Under the pieces are notes generated by a model. It was not told the origin of the DNA and made no database searches. It saw only the letters and a program-made list of their open reading frames with translations. Below, in pieces: positions 1 through 22,074 of a stretch of 25,070 nt of DNA. Source of the DNA: Podaxis mareebaensis (lineage: Eukaryota; Basidiomycota; Agaricomycetes; Agaricales; Agaricaceae); contig JAEUWP010000489.1 of the NCBI GenBank assembly GCA_018524725.1, forward strand, positions 1 to 25,070, in the 5' to 3' direction. How positions within the stretch are numbered: the stretch's first letter is position 1; each line of letters opens with the position of its first letter. The translations under genes and the position numbers were made by a program.

Positions 1-345
1 CGGCTGGTAGGCGCGCGCTTATTTCTCGAACTTAGTATTTTGAAGTAAAATAATTTATTACATAATTATTTATAATATGTTCCGCGGAACGTGCGCCCAT
101 CAACAGGCCACACTCCGAGATGCGCCGAAAGTCGGATAGACTAGGCGCCCGCTCTTATCGAGCGTACATCGTCCAATAACGACAAGACGATCGGACGATT
201 GTAACTGGATAACGGCTAACGTAGAGCACCTGAAGAGTCTATAAAGATGAAACGGGTTGTGTTGGGTTAATCCCCAACACCATTGTGCTCGAGCCGTCTT
301 GCACTCTCGCTGTTTTTTATTCACCGCGTCCCCCAACCCCCTAAC
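1..345 (+). repeat. Hammerhead-bearing repeat, copy 1 (left-truncated by window)
   Basis: Positions 1-345 match 604-940 with about 90% identity over the whole length, with an offset of 603 nt. Shared landmarks are an AT-rich block (about 41-77), a perfect 12-bp palindrome GTTCCGCGGAAC (79-90), the hammerhead core (224-290), and a T-run followed by caccgcgtcccc. The similarity ends near 345. The left end is not visible because the window begins inside the repeat, so a further copy may lie outside. The layout resembles an LTR (AT-rich 5' part, TATA-like stretch, T-rich 3' part) or the pLTR of a Penelope-like element; no coding capacity is seen. Confidence 0.85.
224..290 (+). ncRNA. Hammerhead ribozyme 1 (type I, weakest of three)
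   Basis: Helix I is GAGCAC (224-229) with GTGCTC (285-290). The core CTGAAGA is at 230-236. Helix II is GTCT (237-240) with AGAT (245-248), closed by a G-U pair. GAA is at 249-251, with A252 pairing U283. Helix III continues as CGG and encloses the hairpin GTGTTGGG/CCCAACAC (259-280). Expected cleavage is after T284. Helix I can extend with CGGCT (213-217) and AGCCG (292-296). Compared with copies 2 and 3 it has an A-C mismatch in helix III and a G-U pair at 10.1/11.1, so it may be less active. Confidence 0.75.
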
Positions 346-582
346 CCCTCAGAAGTTGATTCCGGACGCCGAGATGATATAACTCCTCATATATCACAGC
401 GACCCCGGTGACAGACGACTATAGGTGGCCTAAACGGATGTATCCCAAGTAAGTCAGATATCTCATTGCGCAGCATAAACATTGTGGACGAGTCTAACAC
501 TTTGTTCCCAGCCGGAAACAGCCTCGGACGTCTCCCGCGACGAGGAATTTCAAACGCGGCGCCCTGTGGATGGGCGTCTTTT
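346..582. other. Unique spacer between repeat copies 1 and 2
   Basis: About 237 bp without counterpart elsewhere in the window. No convincing ORF, tRNA, primer-binding site or polypurine tract was recognised. If copies 1 and 2 are long terminal repeats of a small non-autonomous element, this is its internal part; if they are tandem units of 603 nt, it is part of the monomer. Confidence 0.5.
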
Positions 583-826
583 GGGCGCTCCGCTTTAAGC
601 GCCCGGCTGGTAGGCGCGCGCTTATTTCTCGAACTTAGTATTTTGAAGTAAAATTATTTTCTTTGTAATAATTTATAATACGTTCCGCGGAACGAGCGGC
701 AATCAAACGCCCTCTCTCCGAGATGCGCCGAAAGTCGGATAGACTAGGCGCCCGCTCTTATCGAGCGTACATCGTCCAATAGCGACGAAACGATCGGACG
801 ATCGTAACCGGATAACGGCTAACGTA

Positions 827-893
827 GAGCACCTGAAGAGTCTATAAAGACGAAACGGGTTGTGTTGGGTTAATCCCCAACACTGTTGTGCTC
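827..893 (+). ncRNA. Hammerhead ribozyme 2 (type I)
   Basis: Helix I is GAGCAC (827-832) with GTGCTC (888-893). The core CTGAAGA is at 833-839. Helix II is GTCT (840-843) with AGAC (848-851), loop ATAA. GAA is at 852-854, and A855 pairs U886. Helix III is ACGG with CTGT (883-886), capped by the hairpin GTGTTGGG (862-869) and CCCAACAC (876-883). H17 is T887 and cleavage is expected between 887 and 888. A second helix I segment, CGGCT (816-820) with AGCTG (895-899), has a G-U where copy 1 has G-C, so pairing is preserved. Confidence 0.87.
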
Positions 894-940
894 GAGCTGT
901 CTTGCACTCTCGCTGTTTTTATTTCACCGCGTCCCCTAAC

Positions 941-1007
941 CCCCAACACTGTTGTGCTTGAGCCGTCTTGCACTCTCACTGTTTTTATTTTCACCGCGTC
1001 ATCTAAC
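941..1007 (+). repeat. Tandem duplication of the repeat's 3' part
   Basis: Positions 941-1007 repeat 875-940 almost exactly, starting ccccaacactgttgtgct and ending near ctaac. The duplicated piece holds the 3' strand of hammerhead helix III, the cleavage site and the 3' strand of helix I, but not the catalytic core, so it is an orphan half site. Confidence 0.85.
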
Positions 1008-1385
1008 GGGTGCTTTGTAAAATGCAGAGTGCCAGTGGTAAGCACGCACTTATTTTATTTGAACTTTAGTATTTTGTAGAAAATAGTTTTTTTATTACTA
1101 TTTATAGTACAGTCTGCGTACCAAGCATCAATCAGATTGGTGCCAACTCCATCGGGACGAAAGCCGGATAGGCTAGTGCCCTCAATAACTTATCAAGACC
1201 ATCATCCAGTCGGATGAACGCAATGGATGGCCGTCTAAGCGGATAACGAACTATGTAGAGCACCTGATGAGTCTATATAAGACGAAACGGGCAGTCATCG
1301 AGGTTTCCCCTCGACACCGTTGTGCCAGTAGTCTCAGTACTCATCGTTGTCTTTTTATTGCACCACCTCCCCTAATCCCTCCGCA
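1008..1385 (+). repeat. Hammerhead-bearing repeat, copy 3 (diverged)
   Basis: Aligns along its length with copies 1 and 2 but with many substitutions: gggtgcttt start, ggtaagcacgcacttatt, AT-rich block, cgggacgaaagccggatag, the hammerhead, and a T-rich 3' end with caccacctcccctaat. The end is set near 1385 where the match with the caccgcgtcccctaac segment stops, 13 bp from a BRR2-like gene fragment. Confidence 0.75.
1260..1325 (+). ncRNA. Hammerhead ribozyme 3 (type I, diverged, consensus core)
   Basis: Helix I is GCAC (1260-1263) with GTGC (1322-1325). The core CTGATGA (1264-1270) equals the hammerhead consensus. Helix II is GTCT (1271-1274) with AGAC (1280-1283), loop ATATA. GAA is at 1284-1286. 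Helix III ACGG (1287-1290) pairs perfectly with CCGT (1317-1320). The inner hairpin is TCGAGG (1298-1303) with CCTCGA (1309-1314), entirely different in sequence from the hairpin in copies 1 and 2 but still paired. Cleavage is expected after T1321. The stretch TATATAA in loop II could alternatively be read as an LTR TATA box. Confidence 0.87.
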
Positions 1386-1397
1386 CACAAAATTCAC

Positions 1398-1885
1398 TCA
1401 AAACATAGCCTGAACCATGCCTTTACCCTTACCCACTTTCAAGAAAACCCTTATAATGTGGGGGTAAGTGGCAACATCCTGGTAGATTGGGAGTGTGGCG
1501 GAGAGACCGATGAGACGAACATACTCGTGCGACTGTTCCACGCCACGGATACTACGGGCAATGATGGCTTCGAGGACAGGACCATGTTCGTCGGGGAGGA
1601 GATGGATTTCGGCAATGATGATGAGGCGGACTAAGTTAGTATAACTGGTATTGGTACTCCCACGGGTAATAGCATCCCACTTCCCGAGAATTGTGACAAT
1701 AATGTGGGCTTTAGCGATCTGCTGCTTGGCCATTTGAGCGTCTCCAGTAAGCTCATTGATTTTGACACCGAAGGCTGTGAGCCGAGTCGAGAAGCTGCTG
1801 ACCATTTCAAGCCTTTATAGGAGCCATATAAACGATCTTGAAGCTATTGAGCTCGAATCCGCCGGCTTCCTCATTGCACCACCTG
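1398..1885 (-). pseudogene. Fragment of a BRR2-type U5 snRNP helicase
   Basis: Reading 1885 to 1398 on the minus strand gives pieces of the first RecA region of a BRR2/Ski2-like helicase: FKIVYMAPIKA (motif Ia region), INELTGDAQMAKQQIAKAHI, VTILGKWDAITR (usual TPEKWD altered), LVRLIIIAEIHLL (the DEIH box has become AEIH), and RLIGLSATLPIYQDVAT (motif III). A TGA after IKA and a few missing residues break the frame near 1806. The fragment stops soon after motif III. The lost Asp of motif II, the internal stop and both truncations mark it as dead; a functional BRR2 should exist elsewhere. It ends 13 bp from repeat copy 3, so capture by or insertion next to the element is possible (inference). 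Confidence 0.85.
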
Positions 1886-1889
1886 GAGA

Positions 1890-2160
1890 GCCCACTGATA
1901 CCGAATTCTTGGATGATCCTGTCGTGGTAGCGAAAGGTGCAGGAGATACGAACGTTCTGCCGGCTTGTCATAAGCCGGATGGGTTCGGTGAGATAGGTGA
2001 AAAAGATGTACACGTTGACGGTCATGATAATACATATAAGGGTAATAACCACTTATACTTTAGACTCCAGTTTAGCGGATTTTGCAGATCGTCAGGGCTG
2101 TCCCAACCAACCAAATTTGCATATAGGGTAGCCGAGGGCGAGACGATATGCGTGTCCATC
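1890..2160 (-). pseudogene. N-terminal fragment of an MFS drug-type transporter
   Basis: On the minus strand, 2160 to about 2030 reads LVGWDSPDDLQNPLNWSLKY followed by KWLL, the conserved cytoplasmic lead into helix 1 of fungal multidrug-type MFS transporters. A stop follows at VLS. In another frame RIIQEFGISG (about 1925-1895) fits the usual end of the first loop. Helix 1 is badly damaged and nothing of helices 2-12 is seen. The next residues belong to the BRR2-like fragment, so the two pieces abut near 1885-1895. Family assignment rests on one motif and is moderately sure. Confidence 0.55.
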
Positions 2161-4660
2161 TATGGGTGTCTCTCCTTCCTCGATCCTTGCCTGCATCTCC
2201 ACCTGAGCCTCAGCTTCGGCTCGTTACTTCTCATGATAAGAACTCGATACACCTTCCGTCCTCCTCCTCCTCCTCAAGCCAAATCCACGAGTAAAACTCC
2301 CTGAACGTAGCCTAGGGCCGCTCCTCGAAGACTTTGAACTAAGTGTCTTGGGCAGTGGTTGCCGGATAGCATCCCTGCCATACATCTCCAACTGTTGTCC
2401 ATCTCTGGAGATCTCGCGCTCCAAGGGTGCTTTCTGGTTGGATAGGGGAGCTGGAGCAGTGCGCGGGGCTGCAGAACCAACGAGGTGTGGGCGAGTGGTT
2501 TGCGTTTGTTGAGCATTCCCTGTATCCGGCTGTGGACACGTCGATGTTGAAAGAGATCGCCTGTGGGGGCGTGGTTTTGTGGATTGCAGGATGGGCAATG
2601 AGTTGTGATAGGGGCGCAGGTGAGAGGGGTCGTATCCAGAGTGTCTGCGGTGGGAGGGTGTGATGCCGCGGGGTAGCCTGAGGACTCGGAATGGCTATGC
2701 GAGGGCGAGGAGGTTGCGCGGATTCGTGAGGGGGTGGTGTACGTCAGTGAAGGCCTGGATGAGGCGGTCGATGACGGGGAGGGTCGTTCCCTTGCTATGT
2801 GATTCGAAACTCCCAGAAAAGCGTGGCATGTTCGAGGTGTGAGAAGATGTCAGAGCCGTCTTGATGAGTGAAACTGGTCCGAGACAAGATTTCAAGGAAA
2901 GTCATCCTCGAAGATGGAAAGGATCGATGGGACGATGTATCCACTTGCTCATTGGTCAGGGAGTATAAGTAGGCTCGCCTATCCGATATATCGAGGGAAA
3001 AGTGGAGACGGAAAAAGAGTTGCAATAATGACAACTTAGTCAAAGCGGCAAGAGGATGGTTTTGACTGGCGATATGACCATCTTCCTCGCGAAGTACCAG
3101 GCATTTAGGCGTTGTTGCAGAGCATACCGGCGTTCGAAGCTGTTCGATCAGCGGAGGTAAATACGCAACCCAAGCACAAGTCGCCATTGTCAGGCACATC
3201 AACCCTGCGTCCGGCTAACCCGAAATTCGAATGGCAGACTCCGGAAGCGGCTCCAGGACAGTACGCTAACGCTCACGACTGCAGTCATCGGTGGACGGAG
3301 AGGGTTTGACCAAGGCAGATTTACATAGGACAGACTAGGATCCATCGGCGTAGCCGCCGACCAGACGTCAAGTGGTGTCAATGAAAAAGGACAGCCAAAA
3401 AAGGAAAGCCTCCCCGTCGTGAATGACAAGCGCGTGTACTAAGCGATACATATACCAACGGAGAGCTGTTATTCTGGTTTAGTAAAATGCCTACATTTCT
3501 GTCGACCATGTTTACTGTGTATTGAAGTCGAAACATGTGTTTACTCATTTGAGTCGTTGAAAACCAAGGGGCGCATCACCTCAGCTCTCATTTCCATCTT
3601 GCGAGCAGTCATGGCCGGCGTCATTGTATTCCCCATCCCTCAATCACGCCCTTCTTCAACATCTCTTCCTTCTTTCCAATAACCCTTTCAAGAACAAGCG
3701 CACCGATGGTTGTTCAAAGGCCCTCGACGGCATCCGTGCAGACCGTATGCCTCCTTCACATCAATGACCATACATATTCACCTATTTTTGCAGGGATGGC
3801 CCCGTACTATCACTCCATAACCCCGACGTCGTCCGTACTTCCTCTGGAAAAGGGTCCACCTGACTCTCTAGAAAAGGCTAACGAGGATAAGCTCAAGATC
3901 TCGGGACGAGCAGCTTGCGAAGGCTGAAAATACCGAGGGCAAATCTGAAATCTTTGACGCCATCAAGGCTCGGGCAAACAATCGGCAACAAGCTGTGCCA
4001 ACCCTTGTACCACTGCAACCACTATCTAATATGACCAGGACCGAGCAACAAAGGCACAGAAACCGGCACTGGAGAAGACTCCTGGCTCGGGATCCCGAAA
4101 TAAATTACATGGAAGGTGGTGTACATGGTGTCACTGACACCACTGTAAGTACTGGTGCTCCTCAGTTCGTGGCGGAGTTTTCTGAACTTCAAGGTCTAAC
4201 ACACAGGGATTCATTGCTCCTGTCATATGTGGAGGAACACGGCTTCTTCTTGTGCTTCCTTTGAAGCTTCACCTCCATTATCTCGCCGATTCGCAAGGTT
4301 GATATGGTGACCATTCAGATCTTCGTAGTAAAAGCATCGGTCAATCTGTTGACAGAGGTGAAGAGTCCAGGGTGGTGAACCGGGACAATGAAATAATGCA
4401 GTAAGAGTAAGAGTGAATGTAAACATGCGACTTGCTAAAACTAAGTATTACTGTTGCACGGAATAAATATTGCAGAATAGTAATACAAACAGAAGGGTGA
4501 TGTCAATCGTTCAGGTAGGGCAGGTGAGGAAGTTGGAAAAGAGTGGGGCACGCTTCTCGGACAAGCAAAACGAAAGAACGAAGAGGAAAATAGATGAAGG
4601 TGAAAACAAAGATTCACGAAGAGTCAAGAAAGCAAGGTTGGCTGCTTTCAGAGCTGAATA
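2161..4660. other. No supportable gene; possible degraded remnants
   Basis: Open frames here are short and switch strand without splice logic. The minus-strand stretch 3202-2795 (135 codons, reading CAWVAYLPPLIEQLR near its start) and a Pro/Ser-rich stretch at 2640-2224 could be remnants of one minus-strand gene, but no family was recognised. Around 3600-4260 on the + strand there are intron-like signals (for example ttttgcag ending at 3793) and weak coding character, again unrecognised. A lysine-rich + frame at 4470-4769 overlaps the tail of the minus-strand DUF6534 locus and is probably fortuitous. Confidence 0.4.
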
Positions 4661-6592
4661 TCATCGTGCATGCCAGGGGTACGTCGTCGAAAGAGGTCGC
4701 ATATCAGTGCCAGCCCTCAGTGGCTGGATCTATAAGTCCAGCATTAGCAACTTTGTTAACGAGAAATAGACGGGTCAAGCTCACCGCGTGCGCCTCGCTT
4801 GTATGTACCGAGGGTGGTCGCTGCACTGAGAACTGTAAGATAGCATCTGCACTTGTCGCACTAAGTGGACTCATCGGGTTCGCAGGGCCCATCATGGTCC
4901 CTTTGATAGTCTCACTCTCATCGCTTAAGCTCATCTCACATTCGTCCTCCCCACGTCTTCCAGCTCCAGATTCGGTGGGATATAGTCCTGGTATCCCTGC
5001 TCGCAATTGGGCAAAGTCGGGGGCGGAGGTGGACTCCAGAAACTCGACATTACAGTGCGCAATCGGATTCTATGGGAGCGAGTTTGTGAGGATGTTTGGG
5101 ATTTGCGGCCGAAGATTTGGCAACGACGCGGGACAAGATCAGTAACCGGGGTTGTCATTTCGGAAACGTTTGTGACTGATGAGTCCGAGGAGGCGGCGCG
5201 CTCGCGAGCGTTGAGCATCGCCAGGAATGACACAACATATACTAAGGGCTCCCAGGTAAGTCGTCACTTGCGCTTGGTGAGCGGAAACTCGAGTCCAAGG
5301 AAAACGGATCTGTTGGGAGGGAGAATGTACTACAACAACCTTGAGCCCTGAGCATTGATAGTCAGAGTGAAATGACTTCACGTACAGAGAATAAAGCGGA
5401 GAGCAAGCATGCGCTAAGGTAAAGGAATGGATGCATGATTCTCACCATATTGATCTGGATATACCTGCTAAACAACCCAGAGTTCAGGATATACTGAATG
5501 ACAGTCGAAATCCTAGAGTTTAGCCTGAACAATGCTCAGTCCGTATCCAACGACGAGCTCAATGTGAAGGCGAACCTGGAGGCTGGAGCTTGGCTCTTCC
5601 ACAAGTAATAACACATCGCGGCCGTAATGATGAAGTCGATTCCGGTGGCTGCCGCGAAGGTGCTGTTGATGACCCACTGATGAAACATTAGACAAACCCG
5701 TATTGACGACTAAGCACGGATTAGGAATGTGGAATGATTGAGATACTCGTCGATATCCGTCCAAGTTCAGCATAGGTGTGAACCATGTATCCAGTTGGAA
5801 CCTCTTAGTGCAAGCCAACGAAAGGAGACTTGGAACATTCGTACATCTGATATACCAGAACTGGAACGGGGACACGATTAGGGCCTGGGCCTCGGTGTGG
5901 ATGACTATCACAAACTCACCCACTCCGATGACTGTTACCGAGGGGTTCAAAGACAGTGTTAGGATCGCCACAACCCTCGAATTTGTGTCCAGGCTTACCG
6001 AAACCACCCGCTAGAACAAACACCTAACCGAACATCAGCGGAAGGGTCAAACTTGAACAAGGCACTGTGCCCAGGCGTACCACCAAATACCCCACTACAC
6101 CTCGGTGGTATTCACTCACTATTCAACTACCGCCCATCAGCATTCCAATCACCTGAGTTTAATGAAAAGCGAAAGAACCGACATATCCACACGCGGAGCG
6201 CGTAAAACTATGAATCAAAAGTATGATCGCAACCTTTGTTACAAGATCAGTGGCTGGGCCCGCAGGACAATAACGCCATACTCACGATGACCGATACTTG
6301 AAGCTAGACGCATTTCCGTGACTCGGATCGTGTTACTTCATATCGTTGGATAGTGTGACGCTTACCTTGACCAATCTTTTCGGAGGACAATGAGGGTTCG
6401 TGTCCGGATAGCAGAAAAGCAAGCAAGCACGCACCAGATGATACGATAGAGGTCCATGATGTTCCCAAACCCGGTCACCAGATAGAAGTACACCGCGTGA
6501 ATCGTTAGTCCGAGATGTAGCGCGTCCAAGATCCTAAAAGCCCGACGTCATTAACACCCTGAAGCCATGAGGCAAGCCAAGGAGCGCCCACC
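4661..6592 (-). pseudogene. DUF6534-type seven-helix membrane protein, fused and probably decaying
   Basis: Exon pieces match the agaricomycete DUF6534 pattern in order: WILDALHLGLTIHAVYFYLV (6592/6533 onward, after intron 6534-6591), FYALRVW (6207 onward), QWVINSTFAAATGIDFII and AAMCYYLWKS (5670-5577), STVIQYILNSGLFS (5524-5465), PNRSVFLGLEFPLTK (5329-5272), LYVVSFLAMLNARE (5241 onward). Introns 5525-5575, 5414-5464 and 5330-5385 have good signals. The tail probably splices on through 5006-4785 and 4729-4661. These proteins are membrane proteins of unknown role. Faults: the usual N-terminal helix is missing and replaced by the HNH part, the natural junction after exon 6533-6435 creates TGA, and the step from 5272 to 5241 needs a 30-nt intron. 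The middle third (6434-5700) could not be assembled cleanly. It could be a live but fast-evolving gene with odd introns. Confidence 0.75.
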
Positions 6593-7485
6593 ATAGGACT
6601 GCAACCTGCGCGTCGCTAAGTCGTTCGAAGAATATGTAGACATCAGATGCCAATGTGAGAACGTTCTGTAGGCGGTGCATGTTCTCACCATTAAGTTCGT
6701 GAACGGCATCAATTTGGCCAAGTTGAGACAGCGCCGCTAGAGCAGATGCTGTAGACGCTGTCCATACACCAGGTAAATCTGTTTCGGAAAAAGGAGGGTG
6801 AAGATCAATCACCTTTTCATCATCTTCGGGAACATCCTTAGCGGACCCGCTGAGAATATGCACTAGCTCTGTTGTTGTGACTTCTTGGCTACTAACAGCC
6901 TTGGATTGGCCAATATCAATGTAGTCAATGTCAAAGTTTCCCGCTAAAAATATAGCCATACATCACGCTCAAGTGCCTAGGTACAAGATTGAGGCGGGAA
7001 GCTAATATTTTTAGGTTACACACCCTCTCCCTTGCTCTTTGGAGGCTGGACGGCGTTGACACAAATGAGGGGTCAATACCCACCATTTCTACGTCAGAAG
7101 AGAATGCAGAAGAGTAGTGACTAGTAGTGGCATAGCCTCTGCGTCGGTAAACTAGAGGTGCAAATTTAGTAGATTGGAGTCAGCACTAGCAGGCGGTGAA
7201 CTCACAAACACGACGAAAACGGGTATCATAAATACTTGCTAGCGACTGTAAGGCTTTGTCGTCTCCACACCGCATTATTTCTAGAGCAAGGATCTTGCGG
7301 CCCTCGTCCGTTGGAGCTTGACGTAGCAGGTACCCAAGCAATCGTGCACATACTAAAACAGGTAGATGGCCACGGAGCAATACCTGAGCGTGACGATTCT
7401 CCAGGTCAAGACAGCGCTCGTACGCGTCATGGACCTCTTTCTGATCCCGTTGGTTGTAGAGATTAACCGGAAGAGGCTCAGGCAT
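6593..7485 (-). pseudogene. Agaricomycete HNH-type endonuclease-family protein, 5' part of a chimera
   Basis: ATG at 7485 begins MPEPLPVNLYNQRDQ. Exon 1 (7485-7206) has ARLLGYLLRQAPTDEGRK, a hallmark of the HNH-domain family common in agaricomycetes. Introns 7152-7205 and 6977-7023 join in phase to give YRRRGYATTSHYSS and ALERDVWLYF. The HNH-like core follows: AGNFDIDYID, TTELVHILSGS (first His kept), ELNGENMHRLQNVLTL and DVYIFFERL, where the last His of the family pattern (DVH) is Tyr. A one-base shift in the A5 run at 6946-6950 breaks the frame between LYF and AGNFD. The frame then continues into the DUF6534 part. Nuclease activity is doubtful because the core His and the usual Cys are gone. 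The frameshift could be a sequencing error. Confidence 0.7.
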
Positions 7486-10323: not shown

Positions 10324-12742
10324 TCAAGGTCCGCGTTTTTCTCCATCCTGAACGCTCGAACCCGTGAGGTCTACGTTTTCAACGGCGTTTTGCGAGTCCC
10401 CGAGATACCAATTGGGCAGGAAGAAAGAGAGTATGAGGGGAACAACGGCGATCGCAGTTGCTACAATAGTCATTGTCTTCATGACTTCGTCGTATGCTGC
10501 GCCCGCATTTGAGTACTATAAGGGAACAGGCAGAAATCGCGGATACAAACCCAGAATGACACCTTCGCGTACTGGGTGACCTCGAGGGAACTGAACAGCA
10601 GCGGTGATGGAGCCGAATAGTTCGAGCTGCTCTGCCTGGGTGAGGAATGGAAGATACCGGGCAAGCTTGCCAGGCATCATGTTCGTCCATACTGCCCCAG
10701 CTAAAGAAGGTGGAGTCAGTCGCGAGCCAGGTTATATGTAGAAATGTACAACGCAACTTACCTATTGCACCGCCTATGCTGCCGCCGATCTCGGTGATCA
10801 GAAGCACAACGGCGGTGACCATCGCTACGTCGGCATGAGGCGCAGAGGCTTGCGCAGCGACTTGCGCGCAAACGGCAGCGAAACCCCCTCCAATACCTTG
10901 AAGGAGTTGCGACCAGACAATTTCAGCATCAGAAGCATTTGCGCCACGGGAGTGGATCATAAGACCGCAACCGAGGAGGCGGATCGCGAGACCGATAATG
11001 AGGACATACTGAGGACAGCGTTGGTCTGGAGTCAGAATGAACAGGGACTAGGACAAACCTTGTAGCGGCGAAGGAAGCACATTGAGAGGCCGGCCACGAT
11101 GCCAAAGACGGTCAATGCGACAGTTTGTGACTGAGAAAAGTAAGTTGCGTTGAGGAGAGACCTGAGCAAACTTCAGTAAAAGCAAAGGTCGTGTTAAGAA
11201 CGACTTGCCAAGGTTTCACAACGATGACGAAGGAGAAGAGATACGTGTAAGAAATGTAAAAGGAGATCTAAAAAAGTCATGAGATGGGCACAGAGCGACA
11301 AATCTGTGGAACGTACAAAATCAAAGGCGCCGATGAGAGCCGCGAAGACAACAGTGCGGTTCAAAACGAAGCGCCTCGCGATGACAGGGTACTTGGCAAT
11401 TTTGAAGTCCCAGAACACGTACACGGGTATCAGGACAGCGCCAACGACAACCATGGCAATCATCGAAGCTAGTTTACTGTGTTAGTTACGTTTTTATGCT
11501 ACAAAGTGCACTAGCTCACCATTCTTCCAGCGGCCTTTGGCTGTTTCGGCGAGTGTGAGAGGCAGAAGGATGAGGGCGACAGACGTTCCAATGAGTACTA
11601 GTCCGAAAATATCAAGTTTATTGGCGTTATCGAGGATACGACGCGGGATTGACCGTCCACTCTCTTCGCTTTTGATAAGCCCCAGCTTCTTGGCTTTTCG
11701 TTCTGCCCAGAGGAGGGTGATGATGAGGGGTGCAAGGGCAGCAGGTACGAGGATAGCGAACATGCCGTCTAGCAAACCTAAGGGTCAGTGTCAGTTTTCT
11801 GGTATAGAGGGCACACTCACAGCCCCACCTCCACCCCGAATGTGTAAGAATATTGGCCGAGATATTGGAACCAACGAACGCGTTGATAACGAAGGGTAGG
11901 GACATGAGACCTGATACCAGGCCACGCCATTTTAGAGTCGTAATATCAGCGATGATAATTTGAGTTAGTAGTTGCAATCCGCTAAGCGAAGAATAAGAGG
12001 CGAGACCGGAGTCGAGAGTGGGCCAAGACGCACGTGTATCCTCTGCAACGCGTAGGGTGTTAAAAACGATTCAGTCCGGCCAGGAGTTGGAGGAAATGCT
12101 TACACCGCATATACGACGATACCACCTGCAATGGCTTGCGTGTTTTTGGCAGAGGCGATAACGATGTAACCTGATTGACGTTAGTTGATGAAGGTGACAT
12201 CTATGGCCTTCGAATACCAATGACATAAAAAATCACTAATAATAAACTCAATATACGCCGCAAAAGTGGGAGGTAAAGCCAGTACTCACGGACTGTAACA
12301 TAAGCCGAGCCGCGCGACCGAACGTCGGCAATCTTTGCGATGACAGGCTTCCCAACAGCCACTGTGTTCACACGAGGACTCTAAGCAAGCAATGTACTAA
12401 CGGGGGCAGTAGCCCAAACATACCAATGATTGACTGAGCGACTTGAATCGTGCTAATGAGACTGTGATGACCGAAACTCGATGTAGCGAAGCTGAGGTAG
12501 GTGTAGGTCGTTGTCCCATCGAGGGAATAGATATATGCTGCAAGGCCCAAACTATAGAAAGGCGTTGGCGACTGGAGATGCGAGGCCGCGATGGAAGCAC
12601 ACCTTATGAAAAGGATCCACTTTGAGTATTTTCCATAGACTCTGTGAGTGGCTTCGACGGTGAGAACGCCAAGGTGGGCAGCGTCCTCGGTGGGCTGGGA
12701 TGACTGGGCGGACTCGACGTCCTTTTCTTCGGATGTGGACAT
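10324..12742 (-). CDS. Siderophore-iron transporter, MFS (SIT/ARN type)
   Basis: Fourteen exons: 12742-12603, 12551-12424, 12361-12290, 12235-12218, 12170-12104, 12042-12034, 11981-11821, 11768-11520, 11468-11317, 11267-11209, 11161-11059, 11008-10762, 10700-10551, 10496-10324; total 1728 nt, 575 aa, in phase throughout. The start is MSTSEEKDVESAQ. SIT-family signatures are YGKYSKWILFI, LDGTTTYTYLSFATSSFG, KPVIAKIADVRSRG, QLLTQIIIADITTLKWRGL, NAFVGSNISANIL, SGWRWGYGMFAILVPAALAP, SFYISYTYLFSFVIVVKPW, CAQVAAQASAPHADVA, WTNMMPGKLARYLP and the C-terminal FFLPNWYLGDSQNAVENVD. Such proteins are 14-helix proton symporters that import ferric siderophores at the plasma membrane. Intron 11162-11208 is GC-AG. 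Upstream iron-GATA sites suggest repression by iron. No defect is seen. Confidence 0.95.
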
Positions 12743-19655: not shown

Positions 19656-22074
19656 ATGAGCAGGACATTTCTCAAGGCTTTTGTTCTCTGCTTTTTTCCG
19701 CTCGTACTTGCGGCAACGCAGCGATTTGACTTTGTAGTCAATAATGCCGTCGTTAAGCCGGACGGTTTTGAGCGACCGTACGTATGCATCACTCCTATCC
19801 ATCCATTTCACTACATTCATGTGTGACTTTCTAGTGCTGTATTGATTAATGGAGAATACCCAGGCCCATTACTCAAGGCCAACAAAGGCGATCACATCGT
19901 CATTCCAACGCACAATCAACTCACCGATCCTCACATGAGGCGTAGCACCTCCATCGTGAGCTCTAATACATTCATGACGTACTAGTATAGCTGATAAATG
20001 ATGCGCAGCATTGGCACGGATTTTTCCAGCCACGCACCTCAGCCATGGACGGACCTGCCTTTGTCAATCAGTGTCCAATTCCACCCAACACAACGTTCAC
20101 GTACGAATTTGATGTCAACAATCAAAGCGGAAAGTTCGTCTCCCCATTCCTTATCACCTGGATATTCAAATCTCACACGTGTCACCCCAGCTTTTGGTAT
20201 CATTCCCACCTCTCCACACAGTACTGCGACGGTCTCCGTGGTGCATTCGTCGTCTACGGTCAGCTCTACCATCTTTAATTGCCACGCAACGCCTCAACAT
20301 AAATCGCCCGCTTTACAGACCCTGATGACCCACTCAAAGATCTCTATGACGTTGACGACGACAGCACGATCATCACACTTTCAGATTGGTACCATATCCT
20401 CGCACCGCGCGGCAATGACGAGTTCTTCTCATCTGGTGCCCCACCGTAATTGACCTTTCCTTCCCTCACGAGTCACACCCTCATTCAAGTTGACGCCACA
20501 GTGTCCCAGACTCAGGACTCATCAACGGCAAGGGCCGATACAACGGTGGACCCCTCGGTATGCATCTCGCAGCCAAGTATCCCCGCTTGCGACCAATAGT
20601 AATTCATCTTTCATCACAGTGCCCTATGCGGTGGTCAATGTAGAGCAAGGCAAACGCTACCGCCTCCGGATCTTTTCTCTTTCCTGCCGCCCATTCTTCA
20701 CTTTCTCGATTGACGGTCATAACATCACTTTCATCGAGGCTGATGGAATCGAACACGATCCTGTCGAGGTGCAGAACATTGATATTTACGCTGGTACGCC
20801 ACCGCTGTCAACTGTCATCTTCGGGACTGCTCGGTTGACTCTTGATGTAGCCCAGCGCGTTTCTGCGATCCTTCATGCTAATCAACCTATTGACAATTAT
20901 TGGATCCGTGCGCCTCCGACTGGTGGTAACCCGAAAAACAATCCAAACTGTGCGTTTAACCTTCACAAATTTGTACATGTCAATGATGAATTCTGACTTC
21001 GTACAGTCAACCCCAACCTTACGCTTGCTATTCTGAGGTACAAAGGCGCTTCTGATGAAGAACCTACGACAGTTAACGTAGTAGGACACAAGCTACTGGA
21101 CGAAGAGATGCACGTCAGTCCGGATCGAACATCGAACTCATTTCGAGACGCTTACTCATTTCCTTCAGCCAATTGCACAGGAAGGCCCTGGAAAGGTATG
21201 TACTCACTACACTCTCCGTCCGAAACTCGCCTTGACACCATCCGCCAGCTCGGGGACGGCACAGCCGACAAGACAATCGTACTCAACATTGATAACACTG
21301 TAGGTGATCCATCTCATCCCTGCAGTTCCGTCGTCCAATCAATTGATCCGTGGGCACTATATCTGATCAATCCTCCCTTCTTTGATATCAATGGTGTATC
21401 TTACGTTTCGCCTTCTGTCCCTGTCCTTCTTCAACTCCTAAGCGGCGCCAAGAGACCTGAAGACCTCATTCCTTCTGAGCAAGTGTTCATCATTCCGAAG
21501 AACTCGCTTATCGAAGTTACCTTCCCTGTCGGTCAGGGCCACCCCTTCCATTGTAAGTGCTTTCAGCGGCATAGCAAATCACGGGGGTGTTGATTCGGTG
21601 CTTCATGTTAGTGCACGGACACACGTTCGACGTCGTACGTCCATCCGACGGAGAGTTCAACTTTAAGAAGTGAGTTTTCTCGTACACCGATTCTGTGTAA
21701 TAGTGGCTTACCAAAGTCGTTTAGCCCTCTTCGTCGTGACGTCTACCCAGGTGTGCTCAGCCACATTTATCAACATAATTTGATACTGACTTTGCACAGT
21801 CAACGGTAACACGACCTTCCGCTTCTGTATGTCACCCCTCATATTCTCACGTGCACGTTCTACCGCTTACTGACCTCACCTGCATCCAGTCTCCGACAAC
21901 CCAGGCGCTTGGTTCCTCCACTGCCACATTGACTGGCACCTCGAGGCTGGGCTCGCGATCGTCTTTGCCGAAGCACCCGAGGACAACGTTAGCGGTCCCC
22001 AGTCACAGATCACTCCGGATGATTGGAAGAATCTGTGCCCGGAGTATAATCAGCTTGAGCCCGAGTTCCAGTAG
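19656..22074 (+). CDS. Secreted laccase (multicopper oxidase, EC 1.10.3.2)
   Basis: Fifteen exons: 19656-19777, 19835-19955, 20009-20133, 20191-20258, 20319-20445, 20502-20557, 20620-20793, 20851-20949, 21007-21113, 21169-21195, 21249-21552, 21612-21669, 21725-21750, 21800-21826, 21890-22074; 1626 nt, 541 aa, in phase. The start MSRTFLKAF leads a signal peptide ([12 protein letters not shown]). Copper ligands are all present: HWHGFF (82-85), [16 protein letters not shown] (His127, His129), HPFHLHGH (440-447) and [12 protein letters not shown] with Cys492, His497 and Leu502 as the axial neighbour. It oxidises phenols and reduces oxygen to water outside the cell. Length is slightly above the usual 500-530 because of a stretch at residues about 360-386. 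The convergent neighbour is the G-domain gene. Confidence 0.95.

Follow-up and report, generated by a model that had tools for sequence, protein, structure and literature searches.

Short hammerhead-bearing units at contig ends of Podaxis mareebaensis: probable telomere-attaching retroelements of an agaricomycete

Introduction

In the terminons of bdelloid rotifers, reverse-complement telomeric repeats follow directly behind a 3' hammerhead ribozyme (PMC6431247). Endonuclease-deficient Penelope-like elements (PLEs), fungal ones included, are described as lying largely at chromosome ends, with telomeric repeats on their truncated 5' ends, and as the only PLEs that fungal genomes carry (PMC3846280); PLEs have also been located at the chromosome ends of Agaricus bisporus (PMC7473861). 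The hammerheads of Penelope and terminon elements are portrayed as minimal forms in which helix III or the loop contacts are missing (PMC7761336), and a role for cleavage is not to be assumed, since cleavage by a Penelope-like hammerhead was dispensable for insertion in vitro (PMC11167929). Here we describe hammerhead-bearing units in a 25,070-base stretch of DNA from the agaricomycete Podaxis mareebaensis (contig JAEUWP010000489.1, here C313), which we call the window and which is an entire contig of an assembly of 36.95 Mb in 429 contigs. Other contigs of this genome are given C numbers, and stretches taken from it L numbers.

We consider it probable (roughly 0.72) that these units, each of which bears a type I hammerhead close to its 3' end, are short non-coding retroelements of an agaricomycete that attach to telomeres, and they are best read as non-autonomous or 5'-truncated relatives of terminon-like telomere-attaching elements. 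Judged by sequence, three of their features fit terminons: C-strand repeats behind a 3' hammerhead, an inward-reading location at contig ends, and 5' truncation with repeats. Three tandem hammerheads had been proposed for the window in an earlier annotation (the original prediction), which was aware of no fungal genomic example with this layout; hammerheads as such had already been reported in Yarrowia lipolytica, in repeats (Perreault et al., 2011; PMC3088659).

Results

Hammerhead-bearing units in the window

Hammerhead motifs of type I, with their ends on helix I, stand where the original prediction had placed them, down to the cut sites 284/285, 887/888 and 1321/1322. They belong to short, non-coding, head-to-tail units, whose ends we placed by BLAST against reference units of 450 (family A), 787 (family B) and 752 bases (family C). 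Copies 1 and 2, with the core CTGAAGA, represent family C, and copy 3 represents family B. The features of the window are as follows.

1-341 (+): C-family unit 1, its 5' side cut by the contig start, carrying copy 1 (BLAST, C reference 414-752 from base 3)
213-296 (+): hammerhead copy 1, type I, predicted cut 284/285, H17 = T284
213-217/292-296 and 224-229/285-290 (+): copy 1 helix I, outer and inner
230-236 (+): copy 1 core CTGAAGA; helix II 237-240/245-248 (G-U at end); GAA 249-251
252-255/280-283 (+): copy 1 helix III, with a C-A mismatch
330-348 (+): C-strand telomere-like tract CCCCCAACCCCCTAACCCC, 3' end of unit 1
349-942 (+): C-family unit 2, 5'-truncated directly behind the telomere-like tract, carrying copy 2 (C reference 157-752)
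816-899 (+): hammerhead copy 2, type I, predicted cut 887/888, H17 = T887
816-820/895-899 and 827-832/888-893 (+): copy 2 helix I, outer and inner
833-839 (+): copy 2 core; helix II 840-843/848-851; GAA 852-854; helix III 855-858/883-886
933-944 (+): telomere-like tract CCCCTAACCCCC, 3' end of unit 2
941-1007 (+): C-family fragment (C reference 685-750), its 5' cut lying within the 3' strand of the hairpin on helix III
1005-1370 (+): B-family unit, 5'-truncated, carrying copy 3 (B reference 418-784)
1250-1332 (+): hammerhead copy 3, type I, predicted cut 1321/1322, H17 = T1321
1250-1254/1328-1332 and 1260-1263/1322-1325 (+): copy 3 helix I, outer and inner
1264-1270 (+): copy 3 core CTGATGA; helix II 1271-1274/1280-1283; GAA 1284-1286; helix III 1287-1290/1317-1320
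1369-1379 (+): telomere-like tract CCCCTAATCCC, degenerate, following the B unit; other sequence beyond it

Positions 1-341 and 604-944 are 92% identical, and a tandem repeat of period 66 spans 871-1007. Two features had been overlooked: the fourth C-family piece at 941-1007, which is 5'-cut and holds no full ribozyme, and the outer part of helix I, which reads CGGCT/AGCCG in copy 1, CGGCT/AGCTG in copy 2 and ACTAT/GTAGT in copy 3, the last two with one G-U each. The claim that every copy has a complete core and helices holds for copies 2 and 3, both retained by the structural descriptor used below; copy 1 is damaged. Its helix III sets CCAT opposite ACGG, with a C-A mismatch, and the core-side end pair of its helix II is G-U, so that the ribozyme of copy 1 is probably weak.

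Elsewhere in the genome, the units reach about 450 bases in family A, up to 787 in B and up to 752 in C, and the ribozyme sits near the 3' end of each. Family A, absent from the window, turned up in a loose scan at other contig ends; its helix I pairs AACTGCA-aat-GCGC with GCGC-c-TGCAGTT, its helix II is GTCTA/TAGAC and its helix III ATTC/GAAT. A variant D (C300:419) and a similar copy in C197 are near family C, both with A for G in the core GAA. The type I hammerhead core CUGANGA ... GAA is present together with A15.1-U16.1 and H17, and some decayed copies (C342, C300, C197) miss one core base. The exact B core had no match in a collection of viral contigs or in one of genome contigs.

Two further hairpins were seen beside the ribozymes. 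One lies upstream of the B ribozyme (A3 columns 101-125; C421, C376) and changes on both sides from CCAG/CTGG to CCAC/GTGG, with one pair lost in C295. The other is a small hairpin between the A ribozyme and CCCCTAA (for example L011 485-530), a candidate second structure beside the telomere joint; its arms vary among copies and pair by eye (GTGAG/CTCAC, GAGAG/CTCTC, AGTT/AACT).

The motif exceeds chance and its helices covary across families

The descriptor demanded the core, a helix II of at least 3 pairs, a helix III closed by A-U, H17 and a helix I of at least 3 pairs. Across 14 stretches of the genome (the window and L009-L021; 126,371 bases) it matched 21 times, copies 2 and 3 included and copy 1 excluded, against 0 matches in the reversed sequence. 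A 27-base core pattern with at most 2 mismatches gave 22 sites genome-wide and none when the pattern was reversed. A covariance model was then built from 19 copies, all three window copies among them. At E<=1 it found exactly three sites in the window, all on the plus strand, and 43 matches in 37 sources overall: 35 were full-length, 16 of these from outside the training set, 6 were cut by the end of the source and 2 were rearranged. The same model had no match in 14 control loci taken from reverse transcriptase (RT) and GIY-YIG hits (L052-L065, 47,323 bases).

The original prediction had asked for a search with the Rfam hammerhead models and had counted a missing match above threshold as a refutation, and on this point Rfam speaks against it. 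In the whole window copy 3 scored 23.5 bits against a cut-off of 48.5, and copies 1 and 2 were unmatched at E<=1; searched singly, copies 2 and 3 scored 21.3 bits each. A hammerhead model nevertheless ranked first among 4227 Rfam families in all three single-copy searches (101 bases; E 0.011-0.034), and the sub-threshold score is a limit of detection rather than a sign of broken structure. The Rfam register itself would make the motif type III; we rejected this assignment, as by our own reading it pairs upstream bases and leaves helix I essentially unformed. Folded as single sequences, a family A copy gives the hammerhead helices with a z-score of -4.2, and copy 3 has a z-score of -1.05. For family A the fixed hammerhead fold lies 4.5 above the minimum, which keeps the same helices in extended form.

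The helix covariation is not supported in the form claimed earlier. Secondary structure is conserved, and the changes become two-sided once family A is added; on B and C alone the score is no better than that of shuffles. In particular, the change from CTGT to CCGT opposite ACGG, which had been offered as covariation, is a one-sided G-C/G-U change of the kind that CpG decay produces, and is weak evidence. Most pair changes in families B and C are of this type (G-C to G-U on one side), and we rejected within-family covariation as evidence, its score failing against shuffles on the combined B and C copies.

The cross-family set comprised 19 rows (3 A, 1 D, 8 B and 7 C) and 12 core pairs, or 225 cells. 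Here 98.7% of cells are paired, compared with 17-63% in slid structures. Five pairs changed on both sides, a number reached by 2 of 500 shuffles, and the covariation score of 0.253, against 0.154 in shuffles, was reached by none of 500; these shuffle tests ignore relatedness, and the A rows carry heavy weight in the result. The number of further pair types was unexceptional (79/500 shuffles). Given no structure as input, RNAalifold recovered the identical three helices, and in a decayed A copy in C411, GCGC/GCGC has become GTGT/ATAC with pairing kept. On the aligned copies, then, the three helices are kept by two-sided changes, a result that holds only with family A included.

Fixed 3' ends, scattered 5' ends and telomere-like joints

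Target-primed addition at chromosome ends is recognised by 3' ends that stay constant, 5' ends that vary from copy to copy, and telomere-like repeats flanking either side. For family B we compared 19 units, leaving out three that start at a contig end and a stub in C133 that has no 3' end. Their 3' ends fall at reference positions 777-787, and their starts range from 1 to 721 (1, 77, 157, 202, 317, 343, 346, 398, 418, 483, 580, 598, 641, 654, 656, 671, 673, 720 and 721); BLAST may have trimmed some of these starts, and the decayed C411 unit (654) truly begins earlier. Upstream sequence is present for 40 starts over all families, and 18 of these follow C3+TAA at a distance of at most 24 bases (A 0/3, B 11/20, C 7/17). 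Among the 3' ends that reach the reference end, 28 of 49 run into C3+TAA within 24 bases (A 7/7, B 14/22, C 7/20), and the others adjoin a further unit, unique sequence or a joint that is rich in C but has no TAA. In the four copies measured, the three of the window and the A copy of C228, 38-47 bases separate the predicted cut from the telomere-like tract. The longer pattern CCCC(0-2)TAACCCC(0-2)TAACC occurs 8 times in the assembly (two of them overlapping), every time on an element-bearing contig end and in telomere orientation; the backward pattern occurs twice.

Ribozymes are spaced 101-906 bases apart over 18 neighbouring intervals, a variability that follows from the 5' truncation of the units. 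The A copies in C228 and C411 are alike from one common point, upstream of which their sequences differ, and a full length of about 450 is therefore suggested. The B copies in C421 and C133 are likewise alike from one point on and differ upstream; this pair could be one insertion that was duplicated. We take about 450 bases for A and 787 for B as the presumptive full lengths.

The helix III hairpin holds, in its 3' strand, the start points of six short copies: the window fragment at 941, three in C300, C193 and C128, and two of family B in C133 and C197. The CCCAAC or CCCTCG found there resembles the repeat, as if reverse transcription had halted or jumped there. A single C copy at L020 510 (C128:510) is joined precisely at the predicted cleavage site, GACAAAA being followed by GTGCTCG, as though a cleaved RNA end had been its source; it is a single case.

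Location at contig ends

With window 600-1420 as a probe, which covers both C and B units, there were at least 44 matches on 24 contigs, the count being a lower bound. On 22 of the 24 contigs every match lies within 4.1 kb of a contig end and reads inward (39 of the 44 matches); C204 could not be placed relative to a contig end. We infer that the element-bearing contig ends are chromosome ends and that CCCCTAA is the telomere repeat.

Surroundings of the stacks

Just inside the ribozyme stack of the window lies a DEAD-box helicase fragment (1398-1805, minus strand; Pfam E 5.9e-10), which has a counterpart at L010 3191-3598, also on the minus strand; similar DNA adjoins the C210 stack (92% over 439 bases). 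By our reading the fragment resembles a pseudogene of a Brr2-type helicase. Further in, the window holds a multicopper oxidase piece (20490-20996, plus strand; E 3.7e-29) and a weak major-facilitator match (10379-10960, minus strand; E 3.4e-4). A window frame of 588 residues (P0121) has only distant relatives, 50 at E<=1e-10 with identities of no more than 55%, and those that carry a name are all agaricomycetes. Subtelomeric blocks are common to other contig ends: window 4098-6622 is about 84% identical to L013 4854-7405, and window 1894-3557 about 82% identical to L009 7232-8956.

A repeat of 443 bases has 6 matches, all within 1.1 kb of a contig end (L010 1-175 and 174-616; L021 615-1057; L011 1-75; C86:103044-103119; C112:1-77). 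It has a fixed end, ...AAAAAAGCCTTAGAAT, joins A, B and C units at various points, and is terminal, with no telomere repeats at its end. In C183, an A tail is separated from a truncated C unit by 3 kb (L009 95-3176) that contain direct repeats and reading frames 430 and 264 codons long; L009 257-1291 and 1319-2110, between the stacked elements, had no Pfam match. This segment may be captured sequence or part of a longer element. The C411 block (L019; C411:10000-17000), the only interior array, holds decayed A and B copies and is almost free of CpG, with an observed/expected ratio of 0.02 within the array and 0.01 in the adjoining flank; the corresponding flanks on three other contigs have 0.87-0.91.

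Discussion

A model for addition at chromosome ends

Established at the level of sequence are the motif and the covariation of its helices, 3' ends that are fixed beside 5' ends that vary, the joints to telomere-like repeats, and the location and orientation at contig ends. Transcription, self-cleavage, priming and the identity of the enzyme we infer, as follows. Transcription of the element would run inward from the telomere side, and the RNA would finish, some 40-50 bases behind the predicted cut, in (CCCCTAA)n, telomere-like repeats of the C strand. This C-rich 3' end could anneal to the G-rich chromosome end, where an RT supplied in trans, most likely from an endonuclease-deficient PLE and possibly telomerase, would copy the RNA onto the chromosome and in many cases break off early. 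The new end would then receive telomere repeats, on which the following element would land. The predicted ribozyme would cut between the element body and its telomere-pairing tail. It could in this way divide transcripts that read through stacked units, and its folding may in addition leave the tail exposed.

A number of results weigh against this account. The Rfam cut-off of 48.5 bits is not reached, the best score being 28.1. For B and C the minimum-energy fold is a competing CCUG/CGGG stem and not the hammerhead, which lies 3.0 to 7.7 kcal/mol above that minimum in four copies; folding energies do not decide activity, because folding programs ignore loop-loop contacts. On the combined B and C set (10 B and 7 C copies, 12 core pairs scored), 96.6% of cells pair and the covariation score is unremarkable, with 440 of 500 shuffles as high. 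Behind 21 of the 49 unit ends there are no telomere-like repeats, and (TTAGGG)4 with at most one mismatch is absent from the assembly, so that a TTAGGGG-like telomere repeat has to be deduced. The C411 array, apparently an old relic, is interior, about 83 kb from the end to which its orientation would point, and a B piece (C133:1-99) reads outward from the left end of its contig, as a stack broken by the assembly would give. Location at contig ends is itself weak evidence, since repeats of any kind tend to break contigs; more weight falls on the orientation that the copies share.

The searches for a mobilising enzyme belong to the same side of the balance, although the power of the queries is uncertain and the assembly is torn at its ends. 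An animal Penelope-like protein gave no genome match at E<=10, in a search that had no positive control, so that its blank outcome proves nothing by itself. Of two Penelope motif patterns, one had 0 matches and the other 21, as many as in the controls (21). An RVT_1 search yielded 501 candidates, and there was no Penelope-type RT among the 150 that were scored. Three of these candidates, RT frames 5-10 kb from contig ends, look to us like those of long interspersed nuclear elements (LINEs), and the genome has one GIY-YIG match. On that single match we rejected a PLE with an endonuclease as the source, and a LINE as carrier was set aside with L062-L064, which we read as LINE-like and which are free of hammerheads by the 19-copy model. 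Membership among PLEs or terminons is thus unproven, because the defining enzyme was not found.

Alternative explanations

The units could instead be the 3' untranslated ends of RT-coding, endonuclease-deficient PLEs of a Coprina-like kind, autonomous and added by the same mechanism, their RT gene being unseen because every assembled copy is 5'-truncated or cut by a contig end. Contigs do break inside the arrays, where long copies would be lost, 5' truncation is general among the units, and such elements are on record from fungi (PMC3846280) and PLEs from the chromosome ends of A. bisporus (PMC7473861). However, the A copies in C228 and C411, and the B copies in C421 and C133, share start points as short full-length units would, and no Penelope RT was found, by tests that are weak. 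We hold this explanation tentatively, at clearly less than even odds.

A subtelomeric satellite spread by recombination between ends, with the ribozyme as inherited baggage, seems unlikely. It would suit the subtelomeric blocks common to several contigs, the B-C joint shared by C183 and C205, and the 443-base repeat, which behaves as a terminal satellite. Recombination alone accounts neither for two-sided covariation across families nor for units whose 3' ends are fixed while their 5' ends are scattered and lie behind telomere-like repeats, and C394, C228, C376 and others suggest independent joints of one 3' end to unrelated sequence. We give hardly more credence, and if anything a trace less, to "ribozyme SINEs" (after short interspersed nuclear elements), that is, protein-free ribozyme RNAs of less than a kilobase that host telomerase would write onto chromosome ends, without help from a retroelement enzyme, as their own C-rich 3' end anneals there.

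More doubtful again are retrozymes, hammerhead monomers that would be cut from tandem transcripts, circularised and reverse transcribed. Type I hammerheads with a helix III hairpin in stacked non-coding units are what they would leave, C128:510 is joined at the predicted cut site, and Penelope or terminon enzymes have been suggested to move retrozymes (PMC7761336); yet the spacing of 101-906 bases, the fixed 3' end behind the cut, often running into telomere-like repeats, and the location at contig ends do not agree with them. Chance hammerhead-like motifs can be dismissed: loose core patterns do arise by chance (4 in the window against 2.2 expected), but the reversed-sequence (21 against 0) and backward-pattern (22 against 0) controls refute this explanation, and the covariation across families argues against it as well.

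Comparison with known systems

The units are small enough to be transcribed whole and, if they are telomere-attaching retroelements as we prefer, would make the role of the ribozyme in such elements directly testable. The question at stake is whether cleavage is needed or the fold merely exposes the tail. Among the literature matches listed, no account joins fungal hammerheads to telomere repeats, and we do not claim novelty in print.

The likeness to PLEs drawn in the original prediction pointed in the right direction, whereas a simple picture of tandem retrozymes does not fit spacing that varies from 101 to 906 bases. Metazoan retrozymes resemble the units in being non-coding, with a type I hammerhead and stacked copies. 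They differ in the constant unit length between hammerheads, which is not found over the 18 intervals here, and the units are moreover terminal, with 3' ends that often join telomere-like repeats. Plant retrozymes carry a type III hammerhead in long terminal repeats, unlike the type I hammerheads found here. Hammerheads have reportedly been noted in fungal PLEs by Cervera & de la Pena in 2014, in an abstract that is said to describe them as stable monomers. Coprina-type endonuclease-deficient elements are described as fungal and telomeric, like the units, and differ in coding for RT, of which none is seen in the units. The repeats of Y. lipolytica share with them a fungal host, multiple copies and a hammerhead; the excerpt of that report calls them interspersed and describes no telomere link, whereas the units stand at contig ends (PMC3088659).

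Terminons and Athena elements of bdelloid rotifers are described with the same 3' hammerhead and reverse-complement telomeric repeats, terminal location, 5' truncation by telomeric repeats and head-to-tail stacks (PMC6431247, PMC3846280). They reach 40 kb and encode RT and other proteins, whereas the units are at most about 0.8 kb and non-coding; and unlike the minimal hammerheads given for Penelope and terminon elements (PMC7761336), those of the units possess an outer helix I and carry a hairpin on helix III. The short telomeric hammerhead elements of this fungus are, on this reading, a variation on known telomere-attaching retroelements. They would extend to an agaricomycete the architecture of a 3' hammerhead plus telomere repeats that has been reviewed for rotifers, in a form that is very small, non-coding and represented by at least three co-resident families.

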